Shown: positions 38,653 through 59,481 of the stretch, piece by piece
Layout of the letters: each line of letters begins with the position of its first letter
How positions within the stretch are numbered: the stretch's first letter is position 1
Notes under the pieces: generated by a model
What the model saw: the letters and a program-made list of their open reading frames with translations, nothing else
The model's database searches: none
Told to the model about the DNA's origin: nothing
Translations under genes and position numbers: made by a program
From: Isoetes taiwanensis
Lineage: Eukaryota > Streptophyta > Lycopodiopsida > Isoetales > Isoetaceae
Length of the DNA stretch: 64,000 bases
Assembly (NCBI GenBank): GCA_021234155.1
Contig: JAJEKV010000019.1
Coordinates: forward strand, 19,777,359 to 19,841,358
Reading direction: 5' to 3'

Positions 38653-39891
38653 ATTGGTCTTTACCAGCGGAGCTGTGGGTGATGGAAGAGTTGGAAATTT
38701 GAGTGGCTTAGCAGCACTCAAGATATCTTAAGGAAATAGGTTACCTCTTGTCTGGTATGAAGTTGATGTTTAAGGATTGTGATTAGAATCTTTAGAAATT
38801 TCTTATTGCATCCCGAGGAGGGGGAGGAATTGATATGGTCTGTGGGGTATGGGATAAAGCCTGGAAAGGTTGGGGCCCATTGGATAACGATTTCCTTGAA
38901 GGATCCGCCCTTTTGGCGTGTTGGTTAGTACTATGGAAAAATTTACCCTTAAAACCTTGTTATAAGCTTTGAATTTTGTCTAGATGGACTCGGGAAGAAC
39001 TATTCTATATTTAGTTGTGGTATAGCAACGAGTGAGTTTTAGGAACTGATGTATTTCTATGAGGAATGACCAACAATTAAGTTCTAATTTTAAAAATCTA
39101 AAACCGAAAAAGCTTGATGGTAATGGTTCAATGCTAACTAAGTTCACTTTGGCATATTGGGTGGAAAATTTTCGTGAACTTATGTTAGGTGATACGTCTG
39201 CGATTAGCGATTCTTCTTGGGTTTTGCGTGTTCTAAAGTTGTGATTGAGTTTTCGCAGAACATGGATATTACGATGTAAATGAGACTTGCGCAGGAGTAT
39301 GAGCGAACTTTGCCAGAATTCCTTATTAACGATTATAAGGATGTCAAGTCCTCTAAGTAAATTGACGCCATTTCTAATAGAACTGAAATGAAAACCTTTG
39401 TCGGACAACGGATTACCAGAAATTTTTAGCTTAAAGGGCTGGACTTGAATATTTCTAATTGTGGATTCAACTAGGGTTGCAACCATGGATTTGGTTGTGG
39501 TAGATATTTCTAGTTGTGGATTCAACTAGGGTTGCAACCATGGATTTGGTTGTGGTAGATATTTCTAGTTGTGGATTCAACTAGGGTTGCAACCATGGAT
39601 TTGGTTGTGGTAGATATTTCTAGTTGTGGATTCAACTAGGGTTGCAACCATGAATTTGGTTGTGGTATATATTTCTGATTGTGGATTCAATCAGGGTTGT
39701 AACCATGGACTTGGTTATGTTATTCTGCCATATAATTCTTGATCGAGGAAATAAGTTTATTCCTAAGAACAGAAAGACTAACACGCTTTCCAAAAATTGA
39801 TTGAAGATCAATTTTGAAAAGGGATCTTCGATGGTTTCCTTTCAGGTTTAATGATGATCGAGGACGATCATGTTTTGAGAAGGGAAGGAAT
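38653..39891 (+). repeat. Array internal region 1
   Basis: Non-coding. It has an internal sequence GAGGAGGGGGAGGAAT followed by TGATATGGTC near 38815-38840 that mimics the PPT-LTR junction. It then has a 55-bp repeat block (39449-39720) and the true PPT at 39877-39891. Confidence 0.8.
39449..39720 (+). repeat. 55-bp tandem repeats inside the array unit (4-5 copies)
   Basis: Copies begin near 39449, 39503, 39558, 39613 and 39668 with (G/A)ATATTTCTAGTTGTGG and contain GGTTGCAACCATGGATTTGG. The same block recurs in every internal region (41888-42160, 43788-44060, 45706-45980). GGTTGCAACC and CCATGG are small palindromes. Confidence 0.85.
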
Positions 39892-40529
39892 TGATATGGT
39901 TTAAGGTTAATAACTAATAATGGTGCTCGGGGGAGTGGCCTTGCATGAAACAATATTTATTGATATGATCAAGTAAGAAAGCCATTCAGTATGTCTAAGT
40001 CTTGATATTATCAAGGAGAGAGCTAAAAATAAACCTTGACCTTTATTTAGAAGCAAAAAGGCAAAAAAGGTATTATTACCTATAAATAAAAGGACAACTT
40101 TGAGACGTGATATCTCTGCGACCACAACTCAGAAATCGGCGATCCTTACCTTGCTGGAAAGCCCTTGAAGTATAGTTTCCAGATTGGGCCTATAGATTCC
40201 TTACGGTGTGCAAGTTATGCCCAGAAAGGTGCATAGGGGTCTAAGCTGACTGCACAGCTAAATCTGCTTCTTCCTATGTTGTTGATGTGCCAAGCCTTAC
40301 CTTCTAGTATCTTCTCTTGTTCCTTGCTTGATCATATCATTAGAAGAAGTTCCTATAACACCAGTGGTTAGTGGCTAGAGAGAGCTTGTTCTTATACAGT
40401 CTTGCGGAGTAGCTTGACTTGATGATATCTCTTCTAGTTGGCCCGGTTGGGTGGTAAATCGAGTATCATGTGGTGTTTTACTTTCTAACATGTTGATGAA
40501 TTTGCAGGAAGAATATAGCATTCATAACA
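39892..40529 (+). repeat. Array LTR 2
   Basis: 638 bp, TG...CA, followed by the primer-binding site TGGTATCAGAGC at 40532-40543. Confidence 0.87.
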
Positions 40530-42341
40530 ATTGGTATCAGAGCTCAGTTCCGGTCTTTACCAGCGGAGCTGTGGGTGATGGAAGAGTTGGAAATTTGAGT
40601 GGCTTAGCAGCACTCAAGATATCTTAAGGAAATAGGTTACCTCTTGTCTGGTATGAAGTTGATGTTTAAGGATTGTGATTAGAATCTTTAGAAATTTCTT
40701 ATTGCATCCCGAGGAGGGGGAGGAATTGATATGGTCTGTGGGGTATGGGATAAAGCCTGGAAAGGCTGGGGCCCATTGGATAACGATTTCCTTGAAGGAT
40801 CCGCCCTTTTGGCGTGTTGGTTAGTACTATGGAAAAATTTACCCTTAAAACCTTGTTATAAGCTTTGAATTTTGTCTAGATGGACTCGGGAAGAACTATT
40901 CTATATTTAGTTGTGGTATAGCAACGAGTGAGTTTTAAGAACTGATGTATTTCTATGAGGAATGACCAACAATTAAGTTCTAATTTTAAAAATCTAAAAA
41001 CTGAAAAGCTCATTAGGGTTTTTTTGAGATTAAAAAAGGGCCTTCAAAACATGCCAACTAAGCCAAATGAAGATAAATGAACTACCAATCAGAAATCAGA
41101 GCTTGACGGGTCCAGTCAGCAAAACTGTTATAACTAACTCACTGGATCACATTTTCTAGCAAACTATTGATAGAAAAGTCAAAATGAGCTCTCGTTTAGT
41201 GCAATAGATAGATCTCGTTGAGATCTTTCCAACCTTAGGTGCTTTGCACATATTTTAACCACTTATGATTGTCAAAACGCCAAAAAATATTGTTTTTACC
41301 ATTTTTTACTATCCTACGGGGCTAAAAGATATGCAAACCACCCAAGGTTGGAAAGATCTCAATGAGATCTATCTATTGCACCAAACAAAAGCTCATTTGG
41401 ACTTTTCTATCAACACTTATGCTACAAAATGTGATCCAGTGAGTTAGTTATAACTGTTTTGCTGACTGGATTACCAGTTCTATTTTCTGATTGGTAGTTC
41501 ATATAGCTTAGTCAGCAGTTCTTAGAAGGCCCTTTTATGATCTCAAAAAATCCCTAATGTTGATGGTAATGGTTCAATGCTAACTAAGTTCACTTTGGCA
41601 TATTGGGTGGAAAATTTTCGTGAACTTATGTTAGGTGATACGTGCAGTTAGCAGTTACTGGGTTTGCAGGTTCTAAAGTTGTGATTGAGTTTTCGCAGAA
41701 CATGGATATTACGATGTAAATGAGACTTGCGCAGGAGTATGAGCGAACTTTGCCAGAATTCCTTATTAACGATTATAAGGATGTCAAGTCCTCTAAGTAA
41801 ATTGACGCCATTTCTAATAGAACTGAAATGAAAACCTTTGTCGGACAACGGATTACCAGAAATTTTTAGCTTAAAGGGCTGGACTTGAATATTTCTAATT
41901 GTGGATTCAACTAGGGTTGCAACCATGGATTTGGTTGTGGTAGGTATTTCTAGTTGTGGATTCAACTAGGGTTGCAACCATGGATTTGGTTGTGGTAGAT
42001 ATTTCTAGTTGTGGATTCAACTAGGGTTGCAACCATGGATTTGGTTGTGGTAGATATTTCTAGTTGTGGATTCAACTAGGGTTGCAACCATGAATTTGGT
42101 TGTGGTATATATTTCTGATTGTGGATTCAATCAGGGTTGTAACCATGGACTTGGTTATGTTATTCTGCCATATAATGCCATATAATTCTTGATCGAGGAA
42201 ATAAGTTTATTCCTAAGAACAGAAAGACTAACACGCTTTCCAAAAATTGATTGAAGATCAATTTTGAAAAGGGATCTTCGATGGTTTCCTTTCAGGTTTA
42301 ATGATGATCGAGGACGATCATGTTTTGAGAAGGGAAGGAAT
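40530..42341 (+). repeat. Array internal region 2, carrying a MITE
   Basis: Same sequence as the other internal regions but enlarged by the foldback MITE at 41011-41559. It starts with the PBS and ends with the PPT. A short ATAATGCCAT duplication lies near 42170. Confidence 0.82.
41011..41559. mobile_element. Foldback MITE, present in one array unit only
   Basis: A 549-bp insert has ends CATTAGGGTTTTTTTGAGAT and ATCTCAAAAAATCCCTAATG and is an imperfect inverted repeat over most of its length (AGATCTTTCCAACCTTAGG pairs with CCAAGGTTGGAAAGATCT). The empty site is known from the three sister units (AAAAGCT|TGATGG). No clear target duplication beyond one base is seen, so the superfamily is not assigned. 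Confidence 0.8.
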
Positions 42342-42979
42342 TGATATGGTTTAAGGTTAATAACTAATAATGGTGCTCGGGGGAGTGGCCTTGCATGAAA
42401 CAATATTTATTGATATGATCAAGTAAGAAAGCCATTCAGTATGTCTAAGTCTTGATATTATCAAGGAGAGAGCTAAAAATAAACCTTGACCTTTATTTAG
42501 AAGCAAAAAGGCAAAAAAGGTATTATTACCTATAAATAAAAGGACAACTTTGAGACGTGATATCTCTGCGACCACAACTCAGAAATCGGCGATCCTTACC
42601 TTGCTGGAAAGCCCTTGAAGTATAGTTTCCAGATTGGGCCTATAGATTCCTTACGGTGTGCAAGTTATGCCCAGAAAGGTGCATAGGGGTCTAAGCTGAC
42701 TGCACAGCTAAATCTGCTTCTTCCTATGTTGTTGATGTGCCGAGCCTTACCTTCTAGTATCTTCTCTTGTTCCTTGCTTGATCATATCATTAGAAGAAGT
42801 TCCTATAACACCAGTGGTTAGTGGCTAGAGAGAGCTTGTTCTTATACAGTCTTGCGGAGTAGCTTGACTTGATGATATCTCTTCTAGTTGGCCCGGTTGG
42901 GTGGTAAATCGAGTATCATGTGGTGTTTTACTTTCTAACATGTTGATGAATTTGCAGGAAGAATATAGCATTCATAACA
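42342..42979 (+). repeat. Array LTR 3
   Basis: 638 bp, TG...CA, with PPT before it and primer-binding site at 42982-42993. Confidence 0.87.
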
Positions 42980-44231
42980 ATTGGTATCAGAGCTCAGTTC
43001 CGGTCTTTACCAGCGGAGCTGTGGGTGATGGAAGAGTTGGAAATTTGAGTGGCTTAGCAGCACTCAAGATATCTTAAGGAAATAGGTTACCTCTTGTCTG
43101 GTATGAAGTTGATGTTTAAGGATTGTGATTAGAATCTTTAGAAATTTCTTATTGCATCCCGAGGAGGGGGAGGAATTGATATGGTCTGTGGGGTATGGGA
43201 TAAAGCCTGGAAAGGTTGGGGCCCATTGGATAACGATTTCCTTGAAGGATCCGCCCTTTTGGCGTGTTGGTTAGTACTATGGAAAAATTTACCCTTAAAA
43301 CCTTGTTATAAGCTTTGAATTTTGTCTAGATGGACTCGGGAAGAACTATTCTATATTTAGTTGTGGTATAGCAACGAGTGAGTTTTAGGAACTGATGTAT
43401 TTCTATGAGGAATGACCAACAATTAAGTTCTAATTTTAAAAATCTAAAAACTGAAAAGCTTGATGGTAATGGTTCAATGCTAACTAAGTTCACTTTGGCA
43501 TATTGGGTGGAAAATTTTCGTGAACTTATGTTAGGTGATACGTGCAGTTAGCAGTTACTGGGTTTGCAGGTTCTAAAGTTGTGATTGAGTTTTCGCAGAA
43601 CATGGATATTACGATGTAAATGAGACTTGCGCAGGAGTATGAGCGAACTTTGCCAGAATTCCTTATTAACGATTATAAGGATGTCAAGTCCTCTAAGTAA
43701 ATTGACGCCATTTCTAATAGAACTGAAATGAAAACCTTTGTCGGACAACGGATTACCAGAAATTTTTAGCTTAAAGGGCTGGACTTGAATATTTCTAATT
43801 GTGGATTCAACTAGGGTTGCAACCATGGATTTGGTTGTGGTAGATATTTCTAGTTGTGGATTCAACTAGGGTTGCAACCATGGATTTGGTTGTGGTAGAT
43901 ATTTCTAGTTGTGGATTCAACTAGGGTTGCAACCATGGATTTGGTTGTGGTAGATATTTCTAGTTGTGGATTCAACTAGGGTTGCAACCATGAATTTGGT
44001 TGTGGTATATATTTCTGATTGTGGATTCAATCAGGGTTGTAACCATGGACTTGGTTATGTTATTCTGCCATATAATTCTTGATCGAGGAAATAAGTTTAT
44101 TCCTAAGAACAGAAAGACTAACACGCTTTTCAAAAATTGATTGAAGATCAATTTTGAAAAGGGATCTTCGATGGTTTCCTTTCAGGTTTAATGATGATCG
44201 AGGACGATCATGTTTTGAGAAGGGAAGGAAT
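42980..44231 (+). repeat. Array internal region 3
   Basis: Non-coding, PBS to PPT, with the 55-bp repeat block. It shows the empty MITE site. Confidence 0.82.
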
Positions 44232-44865
44232 TGATATGGTTTAAGGTTAATAACTAATAATGGTGCTCGGGGAGTGGCCTTGCATGAAACAATATTTATT
44301 GATATGATCAAGTAAGAAAGCCATTCAAGATGTCTAAGTCTTGATATTATCAAGGAGAGAGCTAAAAATAAACCTTGACCTTTATTTAGAAGCAAAAGGC
44401 AAAAAGGTATTATTACCTATAAATAAAAGGACAACTTTGAGACGTGATATCTCTGCGACCACAACTTCGGAAATCGGGATCCTTACCTTGCTGGAAAGCC
44501 CTTGAAGTATAGTTTCCAGATTGGGCCTATAGATTCCTTACGGTGTGCAAGTTATGCCCGAAAAGGTGCATAGGGGTCTAAGCCGACCGCCGCACTAAAA
44601 TCTTCTTCCTATGTTGTTGATGTGCGAGCCTTACCTTCTAGTATCTTCTCTTGTTCCTTGCTTGATCATATCATTAGAAGAAGTTCCTATAACACCAAAG
44701 TGGTTAGTGGCTAGAGAGAGCTTGTTCTTATACAGTCTTGCGGAGTAGCTTGACTTGATGATATCTCTTCTAGTTGGCCCGGTTGGGTGGTAAATCGAGT
44801 ATCATGTGGTGTTTTACTTTCTAACATGTTGATGAATTTGCAGGAAGAATATAGCATTCATAACA
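44232..44865 (+). repeat. Array LTR 4
   Basis: 634 bp, TG...CA, followed by the primer-binding site at 44868-44879. It has more small differences than LTRs 2 and 3 (for example GGGGAGTGG and several indels near 44.46-44.63 kb). Confidence 0.86.
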
Positions 44866-46148
44866 ATTGGTATCAGAGCTCAGTTCCGGTCTTTACCAGC
44901 GGAGCTGTGGGTGATGGAAGAGTTGGAAATTTGAGTGGCTTAGCAGCACTCAAGATATCTTAAGGAAATAGGTTACCTCTTGTCTGGTATGAAGTTGATG
45001 TTTAAGGATTGTGATTAGAATCTTTAGAAATTTCTTATTGCATCCCGAGGAGGGGGAGGAATTGATATGGTCTGTGGGGTATGGGATAAAGCCTGGAAAG
45101 GTTGGGGCCCATTGGATAACGATTTCCTTGAAGGATCCACCCTTTTGGCGTGTTGGTTAGTACTATGGAAAAATTTACCCTTAAAACCTTGTTATAAGCT
45201 TTGAATTTTGTCTAGATGGACTCGGGAAGAACTCTTCTATATTTAGTTGTGGTATAGCAACGAGTGAGTTTTAAGAACTGATGTATTTCTATGAGGAATG
45301 ACCAACAATTAAGTCCTAATTTTAAAAATCTAAAAAAAGTCAAAAGCTTGACTTTGCAATGGTTCAATGCTAACTAAGTTCACTTTGGCATATTGGGTGG
45401 AAAATTTTCGTGAACTTATGTTAGGTGATACGTGCGATTAGCGATTCTTCGGGTTTGCTTTAGTCGTGTTCTAAAGTTGTGATTGAGTTTTGCTAACTAA
45501 GTTCACTTTGGCATAACATGGATATTACGATGTAAATGAGACTTGGGGCAGAGTGAGCCGAACTTTGCGATGTAATTCCTTATTAACGATTATAAGGATG
45601 TCAAGTCCTCTAAGTAAATTGAGGCCATTTCTAATAGAACTGAAATGAAAACCTTTGTCGGACAACGGATTACCAGAAATTTTTAGCCTAAAGGGCTGGA
45701 CTTGAATATTTCTAGTTGTGGATTCAACTAGGGTTGCAACCATGGATTTGGTTGTGGTAGATATTTCTAGTTGTGGATTCAACTAAGGTTGCAACCATGG
45801 ATTTGGTTGTGGTAGATATTTCTAGTTGTGGATTCAACTAGGGTTGCAACCATGGATTTGGTTGTGGTAGATATTTCTAGTTGTGGATTCAACAAAGGTT
45901 GCAACCATGAATTTGGTTGTGGTATATATTTCTGATTGTGGATTCAATCAGGGTTGTAACCATGGACTTGGTTATGTTATTCTGCCATATAATTCTTGAT
46001 CGAGGAAATAAGTTTATTCCTAAGAACGGAAAGACTAACACGCTTTTCAAAAATTGATTGAAGATCAATTTTGAAAAGGGATCTTCGATGGTTTCCTTTC
46101 AGGTTTAATGATGATCGAGGACGATCATGTTTTGAGAAGGGAAGGAAT
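44866..46148 (+). repeat. Array internal region 4
   Basis: Non-coding, PBS to PPT. It has local scrambling near 45.34-45.57 kb: a second TTTTGCTAACTAAGTTCACT has been pasted in. Confidence 0.8.
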
Positions 46149-46779
46149 TGATATGGTTTAAGGTTAATAACTAATAATGGTGCTCGGGGGAGTGGCCTTG
46201 CATGAAACAATATTTATTGATATGATCAAGTAAGAAAGCCATTCAGTATGTCTAAGTCTTGATATTATCAAGGAGAGAGCTAAAAATAAACCTTGACCTT
46301 TATTTAGAAGCAAAAAGGCAAAAAAGGTATTATTACCTATAAATAAAAGGACAACTTTGAGACGTGATATCTCTGCGACCACAACTCAGAAATTGGCGAT
46401 CTTTACCTTGTTGAAAAGCCCTTGAAAGATCTTTTCCAGATTGGGCTCGGTTGCCTGTAGATTCCTTACGGTTTGAAAGTTATGCCCAGAAAGGTGCATA
46501 GGGGTCTAAGCTGACTGCACAGCTAAATCTGCTTCTTCCTATGTTGTTGATGTGCCGAGCCTTACCTTCTACTATCTTCTCTTGTTCTTGCTTGATCATA
46601 TCATTAGAAGGAGTTCCTGTAACACCAGTGGTTGGTGGCTAGAGAGAGCTTGTTCTTATACAGTCTTGCGGAGTAGCTTGACTTGATGATATCTCTTCTA
46701 GTTGGTCCGATTGGGTGGTAAATCGAGTATCATGTGGTGTTTTACTTTCTAACATGTTGATGAATTTGCAGGAAGAATA
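46149..46779 (+). repeat. Array LTR 5, 3' truncated
   Basis: The copy stops at GGAAGAATA, lacking the last ~15 bp (TAGCATTCATAACA), and runs into chromovirus gag. No primer site follows. The missing end means the array's target duplication cannot be read. Confidence 0.85.
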
Positions 46780-47534
46780 GCTACTCCAACCTATAGAACT
46801 GTTGCATCATATGGCACTTGTGTTCCCTTGGCACATAGTGTCGCTTGAATCCTTTGGCGAACTTCTTAAACCTGCAGCTATCTCTGCTTAACCCATGGGC
46901 TTTGGCATAGCCTTTTCACCAAATCCTGGCTGCTCCCTTGAGGTTGGCTGTTGCTACCCTGCCCTTGTCCTTATCCTTCGTGCTATAAGCATTCCCATAC
47001 TCCCTCATTTCATTCAACCATGCCTCGGCTTCCATTCCAGACCTGTTGTCCCCTGAGAACTGTTCTAACTTCCTGGCTTTCCACACGTTGCTCAGCGCCG
47101 AGTCGACTTTCTTCTGATAATCTGCTTCCATTCCGCCCCTATCACGGTTAGGACCCTCCCGGCGGTCCTGTCGATTGTTCTCATACTCCTAAAATTCGGA
47201 GTCGGAGTCGGAACTAGAGTTGGAGGGATCCGCGCTAGGTGATCTCCTTCTCCGGCTTCTCTTCTTTGCTTTGACTGCTCGGCTGGCCAGTGTTTCCGGT
47301 AGTTGGACGTTCTGGTCTGGTGCCATTGCTGCCGTCCCGCCAGCAAGGCTCTTATTTCATGGATATCCGATCTTATCTGCGATATTTCTTCTTCTGGGAT
47401 TGGTGCCTCAAACTCCTGGAATAGGTTCCTTGGCTGAAATTGCCTTACAGGTGTTTGATCTTCCAGAGGTTGTCTATCGTGTTCCACATTTCTGGATGCT
47501 CTGGCTGCATACACATGAGATTGCACTCTGATGA
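46780..47534 (-). pseudogene. Chromovirus gag, N-terminal part
   Basis: On the minus strand from the LINE border: an N-terminal region with EEEISQIRSDIHEIRALL, a frame change, then the gag core (KARKLEQFSGDNRSGMEAEA, WLNEMREYGNAY, NLKGAARIW at 46916-47131). It then continues to FKRHYVPREHK near the array border. Joined in thought with the part at 37.4-38.0 kb it makes one gag, so the LTR array was inserted into the gene. A stop near the border and frame changes show decay. Confidence 0.8.
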
Positions 47535-47535
47535 T
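47525..47535. repeat. LINE target-site duplication, left copy
   Basis: ACTCTGATGAT directly before the poly-T, repeated as ACTCTGATGATT at 50028-50039. Confidence 0.85.
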
Positions 47536-50027
47536 TTTTTTTTTTTTTTTTTTTTGAGTGAATGGGGTTTTTTTCATTAATTATAGAAAAAGGTACAACA
47601 TAGTGAGTGAACCTTTATAGATAGGCTACTCATGATAAAACAAGCACATGAACATAAATGAAATAGGTGCTGCTGTAAGCACATAGTAATGTAATATGTA
47701 ATATGTTAACAAAAGCAGTAGTGAACTGTAAAAGTAGATGGGATATATATTGTGCTGCAACTAAGTGTGTTGGCAGCATAAGTGAACACACTTATCAGAG
47801 CAGTTCCTGCAGAGAAAAAGTAGATGTTAATAAGCTGTAGATGTTATATGCAAGTCTGTTTCAAGCCAGAAGGGATAAGTGCAGGTCACTGATTTGTGAG
47901 GGTGGGATGATTTGTGTGAAAGTGATAGGAGTTTAGGAATTCATAGTGAGCTCGAAAGTTTGGCTGAAGTATAAGAGTTCTGCCATTTCCCCAGTTTAGC
48001 TCAGTGATCAACCTGTCTGCATTGGTAGTGGACATCAGAATTATTAAAGTGCCATATGCATCTGCCAGTCCCCTATGATGGTAGTAGCATTCCCTGTAAT
48101 ACTCAAACTGCTGATTTGTCATTCTTCTACTGTTACTCTCCATGAACCACCATATCTCATGCATTAGGTATGTGCTTCTACAGAACTCCATAGCCCAATC
48201 TAATTCTTCATCTGGTATGTCAATGATGTCTATACCGTGATCCCTCTAACTGTGCCTGTCCATATATCATGTGTGTATTGTATGTCATGTACCAGCCTCT
48301 GCCCTGGAAAGTCTGTACTCTGCAGGCTCCACTGAAGTGCCAAAGTCTCTGCTAAGGCTCCTCATGTAATCTAGGAGAAGTGCATTAAGTGTCAGTAAGT
48401 AAATCATGACAATTTAGTTTGAACAGTCTATGAGCTCCTATGAATTGGCCTATATTTAACCATTGTGTATCCAAATCATCTTTGTGCAAGTGTTTTTGAC
48501 TGGTGGCAACCATCTCAATGTCATATATAACTTGAGATTTAATCCAGAACATAGATATTTATTTTCCTCCATATTGGCACCTGTTTCTATGCTTCCAAAC
48601 ATTCTATAATGCAATGCAACATTAAGTATTCTTATAAGCATCATCATTCATCATAAATTCAAGTAAAGTAGCAAGACAATTTATATGAAAAGTATTTTCA
48701 AACCATGCCCAAAAACTAGTAAGCTTTACACAGCCAAATATGTGCTCCATAGATTCAACATAGTTGCATCCAAGAGGGCAGTAAGGATTAACTGAATTTA
48801 TTGTAGAATTGGAGTGCCTTGAGATAGTTTCCAGACATGGCACACTCTTATTTGCAATTAACCATGCAAAATAAGAAATTTTGGGGGGCAAGTAGGAAAG
48901 CCAGATATTCTTGCACAATCTGAATGCAGTGTCATCTGAAAGGTCCCAATAGAGCTTAGATTTGGAAGGTGCATGAGGCTTATTTAAACAAGTATAAACC
49001 TTGGATACATTGTAGCTGGGTTTACCACAGAGGGTCCATTGGGCAGTGATAGGATTGTGGTGAACGTTGACATTGCCAATTCTTTGCATGATGAATCTGT
49101 ACATAGTTTTATCTGAAGCTCTGATTCGATTTTTCAGATTGGTCCAGGAGATCCACCTTGTGTGATCCCAGAGATCACCAAGATGTAATATACCATAAGA
49201 CATCCATTTTTTATAGAGCTTTGGGTGGTTTATGGCCAGAGGAGTAGTATTATCCCTGGAGAAATTGGGATTCCAGAATAAACTTGTGTTGGAGTGACTG
49301 TTCTCAATAGCAGAAATATCAAAGGTTTTGTGAACCTTATTCCAAGCCAGAATGAAGCTTTTCATGAGAGGGGAAGTATTAGGGGCAGGTTTCAAAGTTG
49401 TGAAAGCTGAGGAAGGTAAGCTATGGCTGATGGAAGGATGCCCCTTGGGATGACTGCAGGACAGCCAATATTTGATGAAGACCATGGCTGGATTGTTGTG
49501 ACTGAATAATGATTTCCAGATGTACTTCCCAGCTAAAGCATAGCCCTGAAGGATCAAGTTTTTGCATCCAAGGCCACCATGTATCTTGCTTCTGGTGATA
49601 GTGTTCCAGTTAACCATGTGATGATTCTTCCAGATAAAGTTTCTTACAATTCTCTCAATTTGCTGGTAAATGCATTTGGGAGCCAAGAGAGCTGAGGAGT
49701 AATAAATGTGAGAGGCAGCAATGACTGAGTTAGCAATTATTGTTCTCCCTGCAAGAGAGAGACAATTGCCATAATTGCCTAATTTCTTTCTGATTCTTGC
49801 AACTATTGGAGACCATAACTCTTTTAAACTGGGATTGAGTGATAGAGGCATACCTAGTAGGCTTGTTGTCTCAGTTGATCTAATGCATTTGATACCTGCA
49901 ATGCTATCAGTGTCCATGTCCCCAATGATAGTACATTTATTTAGGTTCAACTGTATGCCAGAAGCAGCTCCAAAGATGTGAATGATGTGGAGGAAATTGG
50001 CAATGATGCTAGAATCATTCTTGAGAA
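47536..50027 (-). mobile_element. 5'-truncated L1-type LINE with poly-A and TSD
   Basis: About 2.49 kb on the minus strand, starting just 3' of the RT catalytic motif and ending in a ~21-nt A tail (47535-47555 as T). It is flanked by an 11-12 bp target duplication. A 442-codon frame (48622-49950) gives the RT thumb (ETTSLLGMPLSLNPSLKELW, GRTIIANSVIAASHIYY, KIHGGLGCKNLILQGYALAG) and the zf-RVT domain (LPPKISYFAWLIANKSVPCL, CPLGCNYVESMEHIFGC). A broken RNase H follows (GALAETLALQWSLQ near 48.33 kb, then WAMEFCRSTYLMHEIWWF and ELNWGNGRTL at 47886-48191). It is inserted in chromovirus gag and is well preserved, so it is young within the nest. Confidence 0.92.
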
Positions 50028-50039
50028 ACTCTGATGATT
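50028..50039. repeat. LINE target-site duplication, right copy
   Basis: ACTCTGATGATT, matching the sequence at 47525-47535 next to the LINE poly-A end. Confidence 0.85.
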
Positions 50040-50117
50040 AGCTTTTTGTTCGTTATTGCATTTGTTTGTTTGATGATATAGTTGTGGAGACAAAATATAT
50101 CAAAAGAACATACATAA

Positions 50118-53100
50118 CTAGTTAAGGTGCCCAGCGTTGCTGGGCACAGGTTGGAACTCGTAATGTTGGAGATCTGGAAATAATAAGGTTGATTGTAAAA
50201 TGACGCTGCCTAGCATTGTTGCGCTATAAGGTGGTTCGTGTCCTGACATTTGTAGGATTGGACCTGAATTGCTATGTCATTGTTATGGGGTAGAATTTGG
50301 TTCTAGCAACTTCTTGGGTATCGATAATTTTAAATGTCTTTATCTTGTGACATCCATTGTGTGCAATTGAATACATCCAATGCACCATATGGAGTTTAGA
50401 TTATTGAAGTAAGTCTCAATAGAAGAGTTGTTGTTGGGAATAAGTTAAATCAAATCAATGGCATAACATTCATGGCAGCTCACACATTTTACAACTATGT
50501 ACAAAAAATTATAGGCCTATCACTATGTAGCATTTGTTTCAACTTCCAATAATGCACAACGACGTTGAAATGTTTATATTTGTAGACATTTCTCAATTGC
50601 AGTATTGTTGAGATGCTTGTACTTGTGTAACCATACGATGTTGAGATGTTTATATTTGTAGAAATTTCTCAATGGCAGTACTGTTGAGATGCTTGTATTT
50701 GTGGAACCGTCTTAATGTAACACTATATGCTAGCTTAATCACTTCACATTCAAAAATCAAGTTGAAATAAATAACTTAAAAGAAAAAACATTATATGAAT
50801 CTCAAACTTGAGTTTTAGTGTCGTTTTTGTTTCAAGACTATCATTGCAAGTGTAAATTGACTTGCAAATTTGAACTTTTTGAGTCTTGTTTCAAGACTAT
50901 CATTGCAAGTGTAAATTGACTTGCAAATTTGAACTTGTGTAGTTAAACACTGCATAAACCCATTTATGCAACATGTCAACATTAAGTTCTTATTGAAATA
51001 AATAGATGATGGATCTGTCTACCTTGCTTAAAACAATGCCCTTGCTATTGTTCTTTAATTTTTTCTTTCCAACCATTTCCAGCCATATCATATCGTCAAT
51101 TGAATCTTATGTCAATTTAATAATGCACTTGAATGTGACCTGCAAATACATGGATTTAGAGTACCATTTTGATGCTCCCTAATAACATACATGTTTTTGT
51201 AATATAAAGCATTTCAGAATTATCCTCTGCAAAAAAATGCAGCCAATCCTAACTTGTAGTTTCATAAATTTGTTCCAAATGCCACTTTTATTCACATACT
51301 ACATGAGAGTGAATGGCAATGGTCCTTCTAGTGCAATTGCTATCTGGCGGTCTAGATGGCCTAATCAAACCAATTTGATACTGTATATATCACAAAACAT
51401 GAAAACACACTATTCAAATGGACAGGGCAAGCACATGCAAACCATTCCACAATTTTATGTATCATGATGCAATGATGGTTCTTGCAGCTTAATGAACCTA
51501 CTAACTTGCACACATGAGATACAAAGACACATCTGCCAAGATAAATTTTTGTAGAGCCGTGTTTAAATTATACTGCTTGGATGTAAAAAATACAAAAGAA
51601 TTGTCATTGTGGCATAGCCTCGCTAATAGCTATTTGATAGAGGAATGTGTAAATGGAGGATCTGAGCATACCTTGAAAGAAAGCTTTTGCTGCAAAGAAT
51701 AAGGCTATAATATAATGGCCTGCAATAGCTTCATAACCCAGTTGTTGTGCACATGCAGCAATCATACTGTTCCATGATGGCACATCGTGCAAAAGGCACG
51801 CTTTGAAAATCAGCGGCGTCATCCCGCCTCCCCTCCGTATTTGAGAAACATATCAACTCATAAACTTAAGACTAATGGCTCCAAGCATTATGGTACTTTC
51901 ATAACATATACATATACATGGATCAGCTTACCATGTAAGGTGAAGGTCCAATGCACATTCCAAGATACAACATGATGTAATTGATTAGGGAAGCTTCCCC
52001 CGAACAAAACACGGTTTTCTACTCATATTGTTGATCCTAAAAACCAAAAGACATAAAACTCAGCCACTCACAACGTAGGGCATACCTAAGCTAAGCAAGT
52101 ATGACTACCAAAGCTATGAATGGACCAACTCATACACAAAAGATGGTAACAAAGATAAAAAAGGTGCAACGCGTTTAAAAAAAATTGTTGCAAACGAAGA
52201 AAAAGCTTATCATTAAAAAACATTTTTAAATGTTTCTCTTCTGGAGCAATGTGGAGAGGCTCGAGGCTCTGTTTCAAAAGGAAGAGGTGTGCAAACATGA
52301 GAAGAAATATCATTACCTCTGCAAATAGAAGTTCCAGAAAGATGCCTAACATCAACAGAAGCTAGGTTACTGATTTTTGGGACGACCACCTAGCAGAGTT
52401 GGATCCACATAAGTTCTTGCAGTATCTGGATCATGGAGAAGCATACTTATTGTGTAACATGATCACGGAGAAGAATACTTATTGTGTAGCATGCTCTGGA
52501 ACCAAAAAGAAAAGGTGTGCCACGCCAGCTTTTGAAACATTGTCTGCTCTGCTCCAGAAGGGCTTTTGATCCAGTGAATCTCGAAAGGAAAATAGATGTA
52601 AATTTGTACATTATGCCGTCAAAATCTGTAACTGTTCTTCAAGACTTTGAATCATGTTCCGAGTTTGAACTCCAAGATATAGCCACACCCTAGCCATCCG
52701 GATTCCGGAAACAAAAGCCTGGCCAGCTCTGCTCTTACATATGGCAGAAGGATCTCCAGGAAGAGGGGGAGGGCACGCGATCTGCTGGGCTCGGGCTTCT
52801 TACCAGTGTACTGATTTTCGCATGTATCCAGCGGTAGTTTGATCCCAAAACTAATATCCAGTGCATGACAGTTCGTTGCAGCTCTACCTTTATCCCGAAG
52901 AGAGTCCTTTGCCATTTGAGGGTTCCTGGAAGAAAAAACATATCAGGCAAATCCTCTTTGCGCTAACATCTCTGGACATCTGCCGAGCAAATCTTTTCTT
53001 TGTATCTCCTGGCCAAAGCACCTCCAGGCCATTCCTGGGGCAAGTACCAGCCGCAACTCGCTCCATAGCTCTTCTCTTCTACCCTCAGTTGGGGCCTCGA

Positions 53101-53268
53101 AGGATCTGAGTCTCCCGGTTTAGGGCTAGGGTTTAGCCCTCAATTCGATGGTGAAATCTCAGCCGTTGGATCTAGGGCTGGATCCAAGAATTACAGCAAA
53201 ACATTATAATATAAGATACCATCACTTATATTCATAAGATATAATATTTTTATATTCAATAATAGAGA
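50118..53268 (-). mobile_element. Complete non-autonomous Helitron with PPR fragment
   Basis: On the minus strand it starts TCTCTATTATTGAATATAAA at 53268 (preceded by A). It ends with hairpin TGCCCAGCAACGCTGGGCA (50128-50146), a short spacer and CTAG at 50118, followed by T. No Rep or helicase is present in the 3.15 kb. The 3' hairpin is the same as in the Helitron at 14.1-18.3 kb, while the 5' ends differ. It is inserted between the second gene of the H3-like region and chromovirus gag. Confidence 0.82.
51604..51822 (-). pseudogene. Captured PPR (PLS-class) fragment
   Basis: The frame begins with LIFKACLLHDVPSWNSMIAA and continues CAQQLGYEAIAGHY. DVxSWNSMIAxxAQ is the signature of PLS-class pentatricopeptide repeats, RNA-binding proteins of plant organelles. 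Only one repeat is recognisable, and the rest of the frame is not PPR-like. It lies in the Helitron and is probably a captured host piece. Confidence 0.65.
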
Positions 53269-53312: not shown

Positions 53313-54858
53313 TCATCCCAAGTTCCTAAGGATGTTGGTGGCCGTGCCTCCTTGGAGTGCTGTCACCAAGTCTTCGACCCTTCTCTCCGATGTGTAGGCT
53401 GCAGTGATGGCCAACCTGCCCTGTCACCTATAAGGGACTGTAAAGTCGAAGATGCTTAAAGCTATTGTCCTCTCGACAAGGATGACTTGGTCGATGTTTG
53501 GGGGCATCCGCGCATGTCTTCCGAATCCTGAGAGGGCAATCAGCATAAAAACCCCTTCTTCTCCGCGTGGCTGAATTGGCAGTGTATGACTGCTATCCTA
53601 CCATCAGTGAGCAATGGCAAGTAGAACCTGAGGGCTTTGTCGTGCCCTGCCTCCCCTGCCTCCTCTCCAGTTCTGATTGCAGCCCTGTGTCTTCCCGCTT
53701 ATCCGTCCACCGGTATTGCTATCATCTCCCTGTAGTCGCCAAACATAGACCTAGAAGAGGTCAAGTTGATACCGCCTGTTTCCTGTCCGGCTGGTGCTAC
53801 TGCAGAGGTGCTGGGTAGGAGTGCACTCGTTGTTTTCTCCCTGATTCCCATTCGCTCTTGGAGTGCTATGAACTCCTCCTCCGTGGGTAGCTCCTGCTGT
53901 GCCATCATCTGCCTAATGCCAGTGTAGGCTTCTATATATCTGTTGATGACTGGCCAGTATACGTGCAAGCCTCCCTGATACTAATGGAAAAATCTTGGGT
54001 CTCCCGGTCGATGAAGTCATCGAGGTCGGGCTGCTGGCGTAGGAGGTGTAGGAGTTCATCTATCCTGTAACCCCTGTCCTTGCACTCGGGGAGGTTCTTG
54101 ATGTCGTGTAGGGTCAGGTATGCTTCTCCTTGAATGATGACCGGGTTAGGCTCATGATGCCTAGCCCAAGTGGTAGAGCCGTCCTTGTCGCTCTTAACCC
54201 TTCTTCGAAGCTCGGCAGGTCTTGTTCGGCTTGCTACCTTTTCTGTGTGGGGTCGATGTCGATGATGTCATCCACGTCAGACCCACGTCCTTCCTCTTCA
54301 TCCTGCTTTGCCTCTTCGTACTCCAGAAGCATCTGCTCCTCTTCACCTTCTTCCATGGCCATGGGCTCAAGGTCTAGGGGTTGAACAGAAGGTTCTCCTC
54401 TGGGTTTGGGCTCGTTGGGACAAGAATATAGCTACAACTACAGTGTAGGAGAAATTCCTCCTATTTACAACTACAGACATGTAATTGGGCATGCGGGTAG
54501 CCTTATTTTCTAGATACTTGTCTATCTTTGGAATGTCCTATAGAGCTGCACGAAGAGCTATGCTAGGTGCAAAGTATCATATGCAAGGGGGACGTTCTAC
54601 GAAAGAGGTCCCTATCTTGGCATAGAACTCGGTCAAGATCTCTTGGTAGTAAGGAGTAGCATTGATGGTGGCATCCACATCGATATCCATCTGAAAAACA
54701 GCGAAGACCGAATCGATGTCAGCTTCAACCACATGAGCAGTGGCGTTGTACCATCGTCTGAATGCAGAGGTTGCCATGATACTAGAGCTGCTGGGGTTAT
54801 CAAACAGATGTGAAAGCGCCTCTGGGTGCTGAAAAATTGCCTTGGAGTGAGGCGCCAT
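53313..54858 (-). pseudogene. Unrecognised gene downstream of the H3-like gene
   Basis: The Met at 54858 follows a TATA box by about 35 bp and opens a 93-codon frame (MAPHSKAIFQHPEALSHLFD, then FRRWYNATAHVVEADIDSVF). Coding-like sequence goes on through several stops and frame changes: NYMSVVVNRRNFSYTVVV near 54.47 kb, and a strongly acidic tract (MAMEEGEEEQMLLEYEEAK) near 54.3 kb. Then come NPVIIQGEAYLTLHDIKNL, RYIEAYTGIRQMMAQQELPT (53699-53968) and a final block ending TATNILRNLG and stop at 53313. It would be near 500 residues if undamaged. I do not recognise the family. A gag-like or capsid-like structural protein of a retroelement or endogenous virus is possible, but no motif proves it. 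Confidence 0.5.
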
Positions 54859-54885: not shown

Positions 54886-54899
54886 TCCTATTTATAGGC
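54886..54899 (-). promoter_or_regulatory. TATA box of the unrecognised gene
   Basis: The minus strand reads CCTATAAATAGGAC, a strong plant-type TATA box, about 35 bp before the ATG at 54858, which predicts a very short leader. Confidence 0.65.
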
Positions 54900-55067
54900 A
54901 AAACTCTAATTTGGAAAATTTTAGGGTTTGGGGATATCTATCAATTTGAGATGCTGCTATGCAATTCATAGGCAATCTAGTTAGAGAGTGCATCCTAAGG
55001 GTTTTATTGCAACAAATTTCACCTAATTTGGAGGTAGTTGGGATGAGTTAGGGCCATTTTGGTCTGA

Positions 55068-55139
55068 CCACTCACACAGTGCGCGAGAGCCATTTTCAAA
55101 AAGTTTGGAAGTGCTCTTGGCACACTCTGTGAGGGGTGG
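55068..55139. repeat. Hairpin repeat, copy 1
   Basis: 72 bp starting CCACTCACACAGTGCGCGAG and ending CACTCTGTGAGGGGTGG. The two ends can pair (CTCACACAGTG with CACTCTGTGAG), giving a hairpin with a loop of about 35 bases. Lies between the H3-like gene and the next gene. Confidence 0.8.
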
Positions 55140-55270
55140 GCTCCTGTTCGGGTCCAAGATAGCTCAAAATTTACAATCTAAGGGTAGAATCCTACCTATC
55201 TCGGCGAGTAGGGCGGATTGTGCTCTTACTTTCTACATTTGGCCAAGTCTGGACAGAGATCAGTGGCCGA

Positions 55271-55342
55271 CCACTCACACAGTGCACGAGAGCCATTTTC
55301 AAAAAGCTTGGAATTGCTCCTGGCGCACTCTATGAGGGGTGG
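55271..55342. repeat. Hairpin repeat, copy 2
   Basis: Second copy of the 72-bp hairpin repeat in the same orientation, with arms CTCACACAGTGCAC and GCGCACTCTATGAG, about 130 bp from copy 1. Confidence 0.8.
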
Positions 55343-55485
55343 GGTCAAGAACACTGACTTTTGGTCCGAATTGGGTAATTCCAAATGGACATATCATCAA
55401 TATAGTCTTATTACTTACAATTTTGCACTTTAACATGATGAAAACATATTTTTATATTTATAAAAAGTTCTGTAATTACAACAGG

Positions 55486-56626
55486 TTAACAATCTTCCTT
55501 CTTAATAAACCTAGCCAATTTCATATCCCTAGGCATACAAGTTACTCTCTTTGCATGGAGAGCATATGCTAGAGAGTCTTCAAAGTGCTGGACCAGCTTT
55601 TGCTCTGCTGCCTCCTGCAATGCGGGTAATATATCGTCTGTTACTCTCTTCGTGCTGTCGAACTCTTGTAAGATTTCTCTGGTCAATCTTGCGAAGACAG
55701 CTCTTAGTATTAGCAGTTTGTAGCTCCTCTGAAAATGACGGATCTCCCGAGCAGCTCTCACAAAATAGGAGTCCGCCTTTCTCTTCATCGGCTTCTTTGG
55801 GGGTGTGGGTCTCTCCGGGGGCGGCTTCAACGTGTTTTTCTTAGATGGCCTTCCTCCCTCCACATATGTTACCTTGTGTTCTTCATAATATTTGGAGTAC
55901 TCCTCGTACATTTTCATGTACTCGTTGTACTCCTTCAGCTTTTTCCTGTAGTCTCGCTCATGCTTGAGTACATAAGACTCTCGTGTTGGCCTGCTCTTTT
56001 TCGGATCTGTTGTTGGCTTCGGCCACTTGGGGTATAGGGGCGCTGCTGCTGCCGATTCCTCCTCAGCATCCACATTTGAAGGTCCCGAGCCTTCTGTTGG
56101 GCGGGGGACCCTTGACTCATCTTCATCTGACTCAGTGCTTGATGACGATGATGGCGGCCTGTCGGGCTCCCGCTCACTTATGCTGACCCCCGTTGCCGGT
56201 GTCGACTTTGTCTTGCACCGGGGTTTCTTGGGCACCTCGGGATCCTTTCCTTTATCCTCCTTCAATTTTTGGCGCTCCTCCCTCAATCTCTTCCGCTCCA
56301 GCTTCTCTGCAATCCTCTTCCTCTTTGCCACTCTCTTCCTCTTTCCCATCTTCTTCAGCTTACGTACCAGCTCCTCTGGTAGTGCTTCGTCCTCGTCATC
56401 CTCGTTTTCTCCTCCATCGCCCTAATTCTCGGGGTTTTCATTGGGCATGTTCCTCCTCGTCCTGCTGCTCGTGATCCTCCTTCTCAGCATCAGGATTCGT
56501 GTCCGGGTTCTCTTCTTGCCTGGCTCACTCTAGAGCCTCTTTGGCCTTCTGTTGAGCTGCGAGGATCTGGGCGCTGACATAATCGTCTGGTACTACCATC
56601 CGAGCGGTTTGTTTGGTGCGGGCCAT
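55486..56626 (-). pseudogene. Histone H3-like fusion: ARTKQTAR-M tail, charged linkers, H3 fold
   Basis: The ATG at 56626 lies about 105 bp after a TATA box and opens with MARTKQTARMVVPDDYV. Residues 1-8 after Met equal the canonical H3 tail, and the place of Lys9 is Met. A helical linker (QILAAQQKAKEALE), an acidic stretch, a very basic block (KRKRVAKRKRIAEKLERKR), a Ser/Pro/Asp-rich region and a Tyr/Glu/Lys-rich helix follow. The last ~88 residues match the H3 fold without gaps: AREIRHFQRSYKLLI, ILPALQEAAEQKLVQHFEDS, HAKRVTCMPRDMKLARFI. By hand about half the fold positions equal canonical H3. Loop 1 has canonical length, unlike plant CENH3. Full length would be about 380 residues against 136 for H3. 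A TGA at codon 34, a frameshift near 56.45 kb and a further stop make this copy dead. The last 287 codons (55486-56349) are intact. Confidence 0.85.
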
Positions 56627-56726: not shown

Positions 56727-56740
56727 GGACTATTTATAGG
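56727..56740 (-). promoter_or_regulatory. TATA box of the H3-like gene
   Basis: The minus strand reads CCTATAAATAGTCC, nearly identical to the TATA box of the next gene. Transcription would start about 30 bp on, leaving a leader of some 75 nt before the ATG at 56626. Confidence 0.65.
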
Positions 56741-56847
56741 TCTGGGGATTTTAGGGTTTGGACCTTCAATTTCATGTCATACCATTCTGTAAAGCATTAA
56801 TGCTTGTAGGATCAATACATTGGGTTTGTTTAGGCAAAAAGTGCCCA

Positions 56848-56918
56848 CCACTCACACAGTGCGCGAGAAGCATTCTCAAAAGTTTTGGAAATGCCCAGGG
56901 CGCACTCTGTGAGGGGTC
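56848..56918. repeat. Hairpin repeat, copy 3
   Basis: Third copy, upstream of the H3-like promoter, with arms CTCACACAGTGCGCGAG and GCGCACTCTGTGAG. It ends 8 bp before the right LTR. The three copies therefore bracket the H3-like gene. Confidence 0.8.
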
Positions 56919-56926
56919 ACACCTTA

Positions 56927-58188
56927 TGTAATAACATATCAATAACATCAGCATCACATGGGAGATCCTACCCAAGGGTTCAGACTCCAAGGTATGGACT
57001 GACAGCTTAGGCCTCTAGAAGTCAATGCAGACAGAATTCATGGCAAATGGATTGGGCTGGCATAGAAACATGGCTGTTGGGTAGTCCACTCCATCCGCCC
57101 CTCCCGTGCACACTTTGCAGAGTAGGTTGAAGAGTCTTGGGACTGGACTGTAGCCTGCTGGGTGCATAGCCAAAGGGGCTATTGCTGGGTTGCATCTCCC
57201 CAGTTCTGATGAGGCAGGAGGAGAGTCTCCTCCCCCCCAGAGGCATGCATGCCCATCACAGGGGGCTAGAGGGCCACTGCCTGTATTCGACTTGAACCTC
57301 ATTGAAGGTGACGCATCACCCAACAGGTGTTGAGCTCATGCCTTACCTACACGCAGCGGTAAACCATTAAGCCTAGCCAGCTTAGATCCCCGGTAGGCTT
57401 TACACACCAGAAGGATCAGTCAGTGATGGGACAAGTCCCCCTTATTCCACCTGTCTAGCCCCGCCACCCACAACTAGGCGGGCTCTTGTACACGGGCCGC
57501 ATTAATTGGGAATTAATGAGGTTAACTAGGATCATCTGCTACTGAAGGTTTCAGGGTCTCTACCCCCCTTTCCACATACACAGGAGAGCATAGAATGGAG
57601 CATCAACATCAAAGATCAATACCAAATACTGAAATACTGAATGAGATCTAATCTATCTTACCTAATCATACAAGGTTAGGTTCTTTCATTATGGATGGTG
57701 ATCTTAGGATCTGCAAGGCTGATCGGACTGATCTAACATACTATCCTAGCTCATTGCCGGGCTAAGAGGCGGGTTTGCACAATCTCCCCCGATTGCGTCC
57801 ATGGCTTCGATCTTGCTGAAGACTATTGCTCTTGGTGAATCTAATGTGCAAGGGCGGCTCAACGGCACCTGGCAATGCGAAATGGCAGCTTGCCTTAGCT
57901 GGAATGGCTTAGGGAAGCCAAAAATGCGAAAGAAGAAAGGTTTAGGGTTTCCCATTTGGTTCCTTATATGTGAACTTTTAGGGTTAGGTTAGAAGGGACC
58001 AAATGGAGTATTGCCACTTGGCAAGGGGGGTTTTAATTGCATATGTATAATATAAATGCGCAACATACGAGGTTGCCCCCTAGGTGCAACCCCTTTATGG
58101 CTCTCAAGTACTTGTCGTGATGACATGTACGTGTGACGTGGCAGTATAATATATGTACTCGGATCGTATGTTATGCTAGAATGTCACA
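56927..58188 (-). repeat. Chromovirus LTR, right copy
   Basis: 1,262 bp, matching 29960-31253 with small indels. It would be the 5' LTR of the minus-strand element. Beside its inner end (56926 downward) I see TAAGGTGTGACCCC and the hairpin repeat, not a recognisable tRNA primer site, so it could also be a solo or recombined LTR. Confidence 0.8.
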
Positions 58189-59481
58189 TCCCTCAACTGC
58201 CTCTTGCCACCTTCCATAAACCCTGTATTTGTTTCTTGGAGAGGATTCTCTAAGGGTTGATGATCCTAAAACCTCTTCTAGCTTGACATAAGTTGCGCAT
58301 GGACTATCTTGGTGACTCTTGTTTTTTGCGAGACCGGTTGGGTGGGCTTTGGGCTGAAGGCCTGGTTTGGAAATCCTTAGTGTTTTTTAGTGTTGGTTTG
58401 ATCTTTTGATTACTGGCTATCCTTTGATTCGTAACAGTCCATTTCACTCATAATGCTTTCTCTGTCCATTTCACATCATATTAGTACATACTAGAATCAA
58501 AGTCCATGGGCTGCATATTGGAATCAAAGTCCTTTTACTGATATTGTCCCTGGATACATGCCTGCCTGCAATGTGGCCTATGTAGTATGACCTATAGTTT
58601 GTGTTGCGAGATATTTACCTGCAATAAAATGGATCATCATACAGCGATGTAGCTTAAGCTCTAGAGTAAATGGGGTCCTTGGCATTAGCAAATTGGGCGC
58701 ATCCAGTAGAAATTGTAGACACTTTGTCTCTTACTGCAAGGTTGCCTGCAGTTGCTTTTGCGTAGCTTGACCATATGTGGCAACTCAAAGGCAAGGTTTC
58801 CTGCAGTTGCTTTTGCATTCCTTTGACCATCTGTCGTAACTCAAAGAGAGGAAGATCTTCACATCCAGGTCATAACTGGCGTTGCAAACAGAGAATGATA
58901 ACAAAGGATAAAAAAAGGAGATATGATAATTGGGCCTCTTTCGGAGGTGCGTATCTCTCTTTGACCTTCCTTTGGTGAGAATCCAATGTAGGATAGAAAA
59001 GGATTCATAGCACTACAAGAAGGAGATTCAAGGCACTCATGAAGTCATCATAATGCCAAAAGCTCAACTTCTTCCTCTGGAAAATTAATTTGTGGCAGTC
59101 TTACAACAAAAAGCTCCTTTCAAAAAGCTCTGATAGCTGTCACCTTCTCAAGAGGTGAAGAGGTTACATACATTGCTCCTGCCCAGATCAATTCTTCTGC
59201 AAATCAGAGTGACTCAAAGCCCTACGGGGCTTTCCAGATAGATATGTTCTTGCTATTCTAGGATCGACTTCTTCAAGGCATCTGGCTTGAAGCAAGTAAT
59301 AGGACTTAAGTCGTCTGCAATCGCCATCCAGAGGAAAGGAATATGTCCTACTCAGATACAAATCTGCAAAATAGAAACACAAAAGAAAAAAAAGAAGTCA
59401 TTTGTCATGCAAAGCAACACGGTTGTTGCCTTCCAGCTCATTTGAGAGTTTATTTGCAATTTCTCATCATGTAACCCTAGA
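58189..59481. other. No gene recognised
   Basis: Short open frames only. A 36-bp word (GCAAGGTTGCCTGCAGTTGCTTTTGC-like, near 58735 and 58790) is locally duplicated. Nothing else is supported. Confidence 0.4.

Follow-up and report, generated by a model that had tools for sequence, protein, structure and literature searches.

A histone H3-like gene with lysine or a hydrophobic residue at position 9 in a Ty3/gypsy chromovirus of Isoetes taiwanensis

A 64,000-nucleotide stretch of the Isoetes taiwanensis genome (hereafter, the window) contains a histone H3-like gene with methionine in place of H3 Lys9, and this gene is an accessory gene of a Ty3/gypsy chromovirus whose window copy is decayed. The gene is maintained by purifying selection across subfamilies that are saturated at synonymous sites, and the alternative of lysine or an aliphatic residue at position 9 looks selected, not decayed. 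We propose, giving the proposal an even chance, that the element’s H3-like protein may counteract H3K9 methylation and silencing.

On the minus strand of the window, an ATG at 56626-56624 opens MARTKQTARMVVPDDYVSAQILAAQQKAKEALE, which is followed by a stop codon. These are the first residues of the H3-like gene (MARTKQTARM...), with residue 9 encoded by the methionine codon ATG; the start and the stop-ended tail, also compared with other copies, span 56528..56626 (minus strand). About 100 bp upstream of MARTKQTARM lies a TATA box (CTATAAATAG, 56739-56730, minus strand, within which TATAAATA was read at 56731..56738). The gene continues in a second frame, where a 311-amino-acid open stretch (56421-55489, minus strand; feature bounds 55486..56421) carries the charged linker and a C-terminal H3 fold. 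This stretch matches the Pfam Histone model (E 4.4e-20; 72.6 bits, the cut-off being 26.4), its last 104 amino acids match H3 chains in the PDB (E 8.5e-20), and the best 60 of the 175 matched PDB chains are all named H3. For 55489-55995, alignment-free structure prediction yielded two long helices in a model of low quality (pTM 0.32). The gene is broken by at least one stop and at least one frame change, the stop following the tail and the fold lying in another register. Because the tail, TATA box, H3 fold, Met9 and broken state were all re-read in the window, the observation of the sequence-only reading, which had claimed a gene with its own TATA box, a MARTKQTAR start with Met for Lys9, an H3 histone fold and a broken copy, is confirmed, and the H3-like gene with Met9 is real.

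The gene lies within one Ty3/gypsy LTR retrotransposon insertion (29703-58188, minus strand), which is split by nested insertions and has the order 5′ LTR, H3-like gene, gene 2, gag, pol, 3′ LTR. LTR alignment defines a 5′ LTR that begins TGTGAC (56926..58188, minus strand) and a 3′ LTR that ends GGACGTCACA (29703..31253, minus strand). The two LTRs start TG and end CA, the 5′ LTR lacking its 3′ end, and are 91.1% identical over 1306 columns (K2P 0.052, 1252 sites). The 5-bp target site duplication AGGGA was read directly in the flanks on both the 5′ side (58189..58193, minus strand) and the 3′ side (29698..29702, minus strand). No primer binding site was seen next to the truncated 5′ LTR, where that stretch is missing. 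Alignment further delimits one or more nested insertions between gene 2 and gag (47603..53215, bounds approximate, an alignment gap relative to copy L013), the 5′ part of gag (46781..47602, minus strand), which adjoins gene 2 in copies L013 and L024, a nested insertion within gag (38023..46780, bounds approximate), and the remaining gag with pol (31921..38022, minus strand). Pfam models recognise the end of the capsid (just under the cut-off), an aspartic protease, reverse transcriptase (RT) and RNase H within 33.4-38.0 kb; at 32.2-32.8 kb they recognise the C-terminal SH3 domain of the integrase. The window pol also includes a duplicated piece (33441-36540, minus strand), with RT and RNase H present twice (33441-34970 and 35644-36540). 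Outside the element, a DUF7869 domain lies at 62591-63082 (minus strand; Pfam, 2.1e-42).

Among ten copies fetched with 20 kb of context, six have a block resembling the window gag downstream of the H3-like gene, and one, copy 8 (C985, loci L023/L024), is the only copy in which the whole order from 5′ LTR to 3′ LTR was read. Its 5′ LTR is 1,586 bp long (TGTGACGTTCC...GGACGTCACA) and is directly followed by a primer binding site (GTGGTATCAGAGC); a polypurine tract (GTCAAGGTGGGGAGAA) precedes the 3′ LTR. The gag of copy 8 matches Retrotrans_gag in Pfam, and its pol encodes RNase H, integrase, a Tf2-type SH3 domain and a chromodomain (PF00385, E 5.3e-11). The order gag, protease, RT, RNase H, integrase is thus pieced together from two copies, copy 8 and the window. 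Given the integrase chromodomain in the related copy 8, the sole copy tested for it, the element is a chromovirus. The sequence-only reading had called the gene transposon- or virus-embedded; the mobile element stands, as an LTR retrotransposon, and the virus does not. We rejected an insertion of a giant virus or other virus because the LTRs, primer binding site, polypurine tract, target site duplication and gag-pol anatomy mark a retrotransposon. The element resembles the chromoviruses of non-seed plants in being Ty3/gypsy with an integrase chromodomain (PMC2864245, PMC3350952; these and all papers cited below are represented by the parts of their text available to us), and the available parts of those two papers do not mention a histone gene.

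Direct repeats of 6.6 kb with 95.8% identity (L011:1570-8136 and L012:3428-10000) flank one copy of the element. The start of the H3-like gene at L014:9248-9382 recurs 8.7 kb away and again near 2.947 Mb (L046) with an identical tail, and four Met9 starts occur within ~36 kb at C1072:5327848-5364165; these L014/L046 and C1072 repeats are possibly local duplications of the retroelement.

The sequence-only reading had proposed looking in the source genome for further copies, for tail and fold within one gene, and for purifying selection by dN/dS, and all three were found. A search of the genome (1,658,258,908 bases in 1,110 contigs) with the 311-amino-acid stretch gave 127 scored places, the window included, out of 15,119 candidates, with 62-100% identity across part or all of the stretch. 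Exact MARTKQTA-coding starts number 2,079 genome-wide, compared with 0 in a reversed control. Because of these starts against the empty control, together with the 127 protein-level places, the gene is not a chance pattern. Thirty-one distinct copies, picked by likeness to the window, were fetched, and in 11 of them a single open frame of 378-421 amino acids runs from MARTKQ through the linker (about 270-315 amino acids, charged) and the H3 fold to a stop. Some of these open frames bear small lesions: the linkers of c9 and c10 seem to have been shifted out of frame and back again, a small deletion affects the fold of L004, and L003 carries the change R8W. The ORFs of c4 and L034 are near-identical.

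Compared with canonical H3, the 11 open copies are 47-51% identical, and 87 columns are ungapped in 10 of the 11 rows, the eleventh being L004, whose deletion leaves one gap. In the tail, R2, T3, K4, Q5 and T6 are unchanged in all 11 ORFs, and A7 and R8 in 10 each; H3 Ser10, Thr11 and Gly12 are replaced by V (11/11), V/M/A and P (10/11), respectively. In the fold, C110, H113, R116, D123 and L126, which we take to be H3 interface residues, are retained in all 11 ORFs. Residues K115 and R69 are likewise retained in 11, R83 in 9 and R72 in 7, while R63 and F84 are altered in all; the fold positions retained presumably include several H3 DNA-contact residues. The fold therefore qualifies as a core H3 fold, while a canonical tail joined directly to it was not found, V10, P12 and the linker standing in its place.

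For the fold, dS is finite and above zero in 25 of 55 pairs, whose dN/dS values range from 0.02 to 0.20. For the whole ORF, dS is saturated in 25 of the 55 pairs and finite in the other 30, of which 28 have dN/dS values of 0.07-0.30. The outliers are c10-L003 (0.45) and c4-L034 (1.3, from about half a dozen changes). A fold-only tree with the canonical H3 core row and a Babesia H3 as outgroups was little resolved, with one starred branch.

The captured gene could instead have been a centromeric histone, CENH3, used by the element for reaching centromeres. Plant CENH3 tails likewise start MARTK, and loop 1 of CENH3 is longer than that of H3. The common tail start would suit such an origin, as would the centromeric location described for CRM-clade chromoviruses in the text available to us. 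However, loop 1 of the element’s protein has no insertion (it is ungapped there against canonical H3 in 10 of the 11 open ORFs), no CENP-A name occurs among the best 60 PDB chains, all named H3, and residues 1-8 are those of canonical H3. On these three grounds we excluded CENH3 identity, for which we see only a very slim chance.

Residue 9 is Met in 20, Val in 4, Lys in 3 and Ile in 2 of the 29 readable tails of the 31 copies (L044, which is shifted, and L002, whose tail was not found, were left out; L043, with a frame shift just upstream, was kept). Since these copies were selected by likeness to the window, Met9 is over-represented among them. We therefore rely on genome-wide counts of exact patterns in which codon 8 is Arg-type, AGY among them (n = 1,888 tails); 1,051 of these tails have Lys at residue 9, 753 an aliphatic residue or Phe, and 84 another residue (1,135 non-hydrophobic codons minus the 1,051 Lys). 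The 753 hydrophobic codons, recognised by T in the middle position, comprise 80 Met, 314 Ile and, by subtraction, 359 Val, Leu or Phe. The Lys9 tails were counted by pattern, without copy-by-copy reading of fold or LTRs; at most 25 tails combine Lys9 with a Ser/Thr/Cys-type codon 10, a class that covers the canonical H3 form, and nearly all other tails are therefore taken as retroelement copies.

As an internal control, we used the Lys4 spectrum of the same tails (n = 1,902), in which residue 4 is Lys in 1,888, another residue in 13 and hydrophobic in 1 (1,901 non-hydrophobic codons). Departures from lysine amount to 14 of 1,902 at residue 4 versus 837 of 1,888 at residue 9, and 753 of the latter 837 are hydrophobic. 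Single-base changes of lysine codons lead mostly to Arg, Glu, Gln, Asn and Thr. Because 753 of 837 departures are hydrophobic, the residue-9 spectrum is the opposite of that produced by single-base decay, and it is the contrast between residues 4 and 9 that makes the residue-9 choice look selected, on counts that are non-independent because families expand clonally.

The sequence-only reading had allowed that K9M could be chance decay (of one base). Met9 is found throughout the window’s subfamily; because it is fixed there, it is not chance decay of the window copy, and we excluded that origin. The K9M tail holds for this subfamily and does not extend to the family as a whole, with Met in 80 and Lys in 1,051 of 1,888 tails. 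Other copies with Lys9 had been named beforehand as evidence that would count against the proposal, and they bear on it in part, at 1,051 of 1,888 tails with no more than 25 of canonical type.

These spectra also bear on the possibility that a host H3 was captured as a passenger, in the manner of fungal hAT elements, with Met9 as a product of decay. In Dothideomycetes, hAT DNA transposons have captured H3 as a copy of the host gene that is RIP-inactivated or, in Pyrenophora, potentially active, according to the available part of the report (PMC6710886). That such capture by transposons is described in fungi, and that the window copy is broken, would fit a passenger. In contrast, a passenger would account neither for purifying selection that spans subfamilies saturated in dS, nor for Met9 being common to the window’s subfamily, nor for 2,079 exact MARTKQTA starts, nor for the 753 hydrophobic codons at residue 9 when residue 4 has a single one. 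Purifying selection and the difference between the residue-9 and residue-4 spectra led us to exclude a passenger H3, whose chance we consider close to nil. The Isoetes and fungal elements are alike in that an H3 sequence is carried and multiplied to hundreds of copies; unlike the fungal gene, as far as it is described in the accessible text, the Isoetes gene is a diverged, selected accessory of an LTR element, and the protein it encodes has a long linker and varies at residue 9 (PMC6710886).

Another explanation places the function in residues 1-8 of H3, which would mimic the ligand of K4 readers and recruit activators, with residue 9 incidental. Readers of unmodified or methylated K4 include PHD-type proteins, COMPASS and demethylases. 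The invariance of R2-T6 in 11 of 11 open ORFs and the presence of Lys4 in 1,888 of 1,902 tails agree with such mimicry. Yet under such mimicry residue 9 should show no particular spectrum, whereas Lys or an aliphatic residue is seen there, and we regard this explanation as improbable.

The 80 Met9 tails fall into seven clusters by synonymous backbone (47, 16, 10, 3, 2, 1 and 1 tails; linkage at no more than 2 differences). Among the rows listed, exact Lys9 twins occur for two of the three large Met9 clusters (C8:75290 and C120:81019) and for one Met9 singleton (C588:49163). Several origins of Met9 are likely, as judged from these backbones. A single change suffices for Met9, and another for Lys9, in trees built from the 11 open ORFs; Lys9 is strongly supported, while a single Met9 origin among the 11 is weakly supported (77/84 in the protein tree, 54/77 in the DNA tree). 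The trees have two main sides, Lys9 with Ile9 versus Met9 with Val9. Most Ile9 rows listed have the backbone ATGGCAAGAACTAAGCAAAC[CT]GCAAGG with ATC in common, and the many near-identical Ile9 tails may reflect a fairly recent burst.

Both accessory genes are preceded by an inverted repeat of ~70 bp, whose arms CCCCTCACAGAGTGCGC and GCGCACTGTGTGAGTGG are nearly invariant. Repeat comparison locates one such element upstream of the H3-like gene (56847..56917) and two upstream of gene 2 (copy 1, 55269..55346; copy 2, 55067..55137), all on the minus strand of the window. The spacer between the arms is 35-36 bases long in 61 of the 64 elements in the 31 copies, and inverted repeats with exact arms number 717 genome-wide (control, 0). 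The spacers vary between subfamilies and tend to be dyads (mean score 6.0 versus 3.4 when shuffled, 60 distinct spacers; the corresponding z of 19.6 is too high because the copies are related). All 21 adjacent pairs less than 500 bp apart are spaced 190-214 bp. The length of plant DNA per nucleosome is near 190-214 bp.

Gene 2 (MATSAFRRWYNATAHV...; 53320..54777, minus strand, 3′ bound approximate) was delimited by alignment to other copies; its TATA box was read at 54889..54896 (minus strand), and the gene is broken in the window. The encoded protein starts MATSAFRRWY..., its ~100 N-terminal residues are well conserved, and its dN/dS values in other copies are 0.04-0.32 over 69-110 N-terminal codons. 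Because dN/dS is low in both the H3-like gene and gene 2, both accessory genes have long been kept by selection. No relative of gene 2 emerged from a protein search at E 0.001, the gene in copies 8 and L007 has no Pfam match at E 0.1, and the window piece has a single Pfam match below the cut-off (DUF6019, E 0.11).

The combination of an element-encoded protein with a repeated noncoding motif inside the element is reminiscent of VANC of the Arabidopsis VANDAL elements, an anti-silencing protein associated with tandem target motifs in noncoding parts, motifs that diversify between families (PMC10398659, PMC5735166, from the accessible text). This likeness concerns the repeat layout, in which the Isoetes repeats are candidate targets.

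The repeats also bear on the reading that the gene encodes an element-specific H3 variant that builds or marks nucleosomes on the element’s DNA or at target sites, with no trapping of methyltransferases. Such a variant could open promoters, target integration or package cDNA, and residue 9 would matter only in that a polar residue is barred there. An H3 fold that retains its interface and several DNA-contact residues agrees with a marking role, as do the spacing of inverted repeats at 190-214 bp (21/21 pairs), about a nucleosome repeat, the Lys9 in the majority of tails and the integrase chromodomain of copy 8. However, this role leaves unexplained why 753 of 837 departures from Lys9 are hydrophobic and why the peptide of residues 1-8 is unchanged, and taken by itself we consider it unlikely, though worth keeping in view.

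We return to counteraction of H3K9 methylation, the mark with which hosts silence mobile elements of this kind. Engineered H3K9M traps Clr4 and dominantly blocks H3K9 methylation, and in the structure with G9a, Met9 takes the place of the lysine among aromatic residues, as does norleucine (PMC5030085, available text). The SET domain of EZH2 prefers linear hydrophobic chains (PMC6562757, in the part available). A natural K-to-M mimic is the host gene EZHIP, which imitates K27M via a short motif (PMC12713659, likewise). As in H3K9M and EZHIP, the Isoetes protein of Met9 copies has an H3-tail peptide with Met at the target lysine (PMC5030085, PMC12713659, same parts); unlike engineered H3K9M, which has the full canonical tail, it differs at residues 10-12, and its residue 9 varies by subfamily. 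An H3 N-terminus, an H3 fold and a residue 9 that is Lys or hydrophobic form the set expected if residue 9 fits the lysine channel, and this fit together with the H3K9M and EZHIP precedents is why counteraction of H3K9 methylation is favoured.

The encoded protein has H3 residues 1-8, Lys or an aliphatic residue at position 9, V-x-P, a long charged linker and the H3 fold. By means of the fold this protein may enter or dock on chromatin, where it would act near the element’s own promoters and display an H3 tail that H3K9 methyltransferases could bind. A tail with Met9 or Ile9, and perhaps Val9 or Leu9, would not be methylated at residue 9 and would possibly hold the enzyme; to our knowledge, neither Val9 nor Leu9 is an established inhibitor. 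Holding of the enzyme would lead to less H3K9 methylation and less silencing of the element. A tail with Lys9 could serve as a substrate decoy, or carry a mark readable by the chromodomain of the element’s integrase. Direct trapping of SET domains is the least certain part of this explanation. Phosphorylated S10 hinders SET-domain binding (PMC5030085, available text), and the replacement of S10, T11 and G12 may weaken binding by the Isoetes tails. Because Lys9 is present in over half of the tails, a methylation block is not the function of every subfamily, and this majority and the loss of S10, T11 and G12 help to keep our confidence from going beyond even. More tentatively, and with somewhat less than an even chance, marking and evasion may be joined in a lineage with its own histone: an H3 variant would mark the element’s chromatin at the paired inverted repeats, and Met, Ile or Val at residue 9 would poison or evade H3K9 silencing in several subfamilies. 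If true, the gene would be a selfish ‘oncohistone’, a long-used anti-silencing weapon of LTR retrotransposons.

If counteraction of H3K9 methylation holds, a genome parasite exploits the K-to-M and K-to-I trick of cancer histones. Sorted by residue 9, the ~2,000 natural copies of the H3 tail would then be a resource on what the H3K9 machinery tolerates. The family also offers a testable case of how transposons are silenced in lycophytes, a group whose chromatin was called little known in 2012 (PMC3350952, available part).

Accessory genes of LTR retrotransposons are known, as is anti-silencing by proteins that transposons encode, and we know of no precedent for the histone cargo or for the residue-9 pattern. 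Ty3/gypsy elements of Phalaenopsis carry an ORF for an AlkB m6A demethylase, and they resemble the Isoetes element in being Gypsy-type LTR retrotransposons with a captured accessory gene and, on the proposed reading, in the aim of that gene at host epigenetic or epitranscriptomic control; their cargo is an enzyme and not a histone (PMC9289625, from the text available). The same report screened 121 angiosperm genomes, non-seed plants being outside its scope, and found 15 extra domains, among the nine of which that its available text names there is no histone. In the leading matches of our literature searches, which left most subscription papers outside, no retrotransposon with its own histone gene was found.

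Protein searches covered 5.8 billion proteins, of which those of similar length and with shared short words were scored. The 311-amino-acid stretch gave one match, a weak one to a Babesia H3, and the open ORF of L003 gave 55 matches (E up to 10; 7,999 scored) whose coverage of 16-32% corresponds to the fold; the linker matched nothing in either search. None of the 56 matched proteins has Met after ARTKQTAR, where Lys is found and, in one protein (P0020), Gln. Five of them (P0021, P0022, P0023, P0025 and P0027) have the same plan of tail, long linker and fold with Lys9, three of the five as read over their full length, and the plan is therefore not unique to the Isoetes taiwanensis genome. These five proteins are 395-429 amino acids long, start MARTKQTARK or MARTKQTVRK, have charged linkers of roughly 250-320 amino acids and are encoded on contigs of 2-19 kb; judging by this plan, they could be other mobile-element histones.
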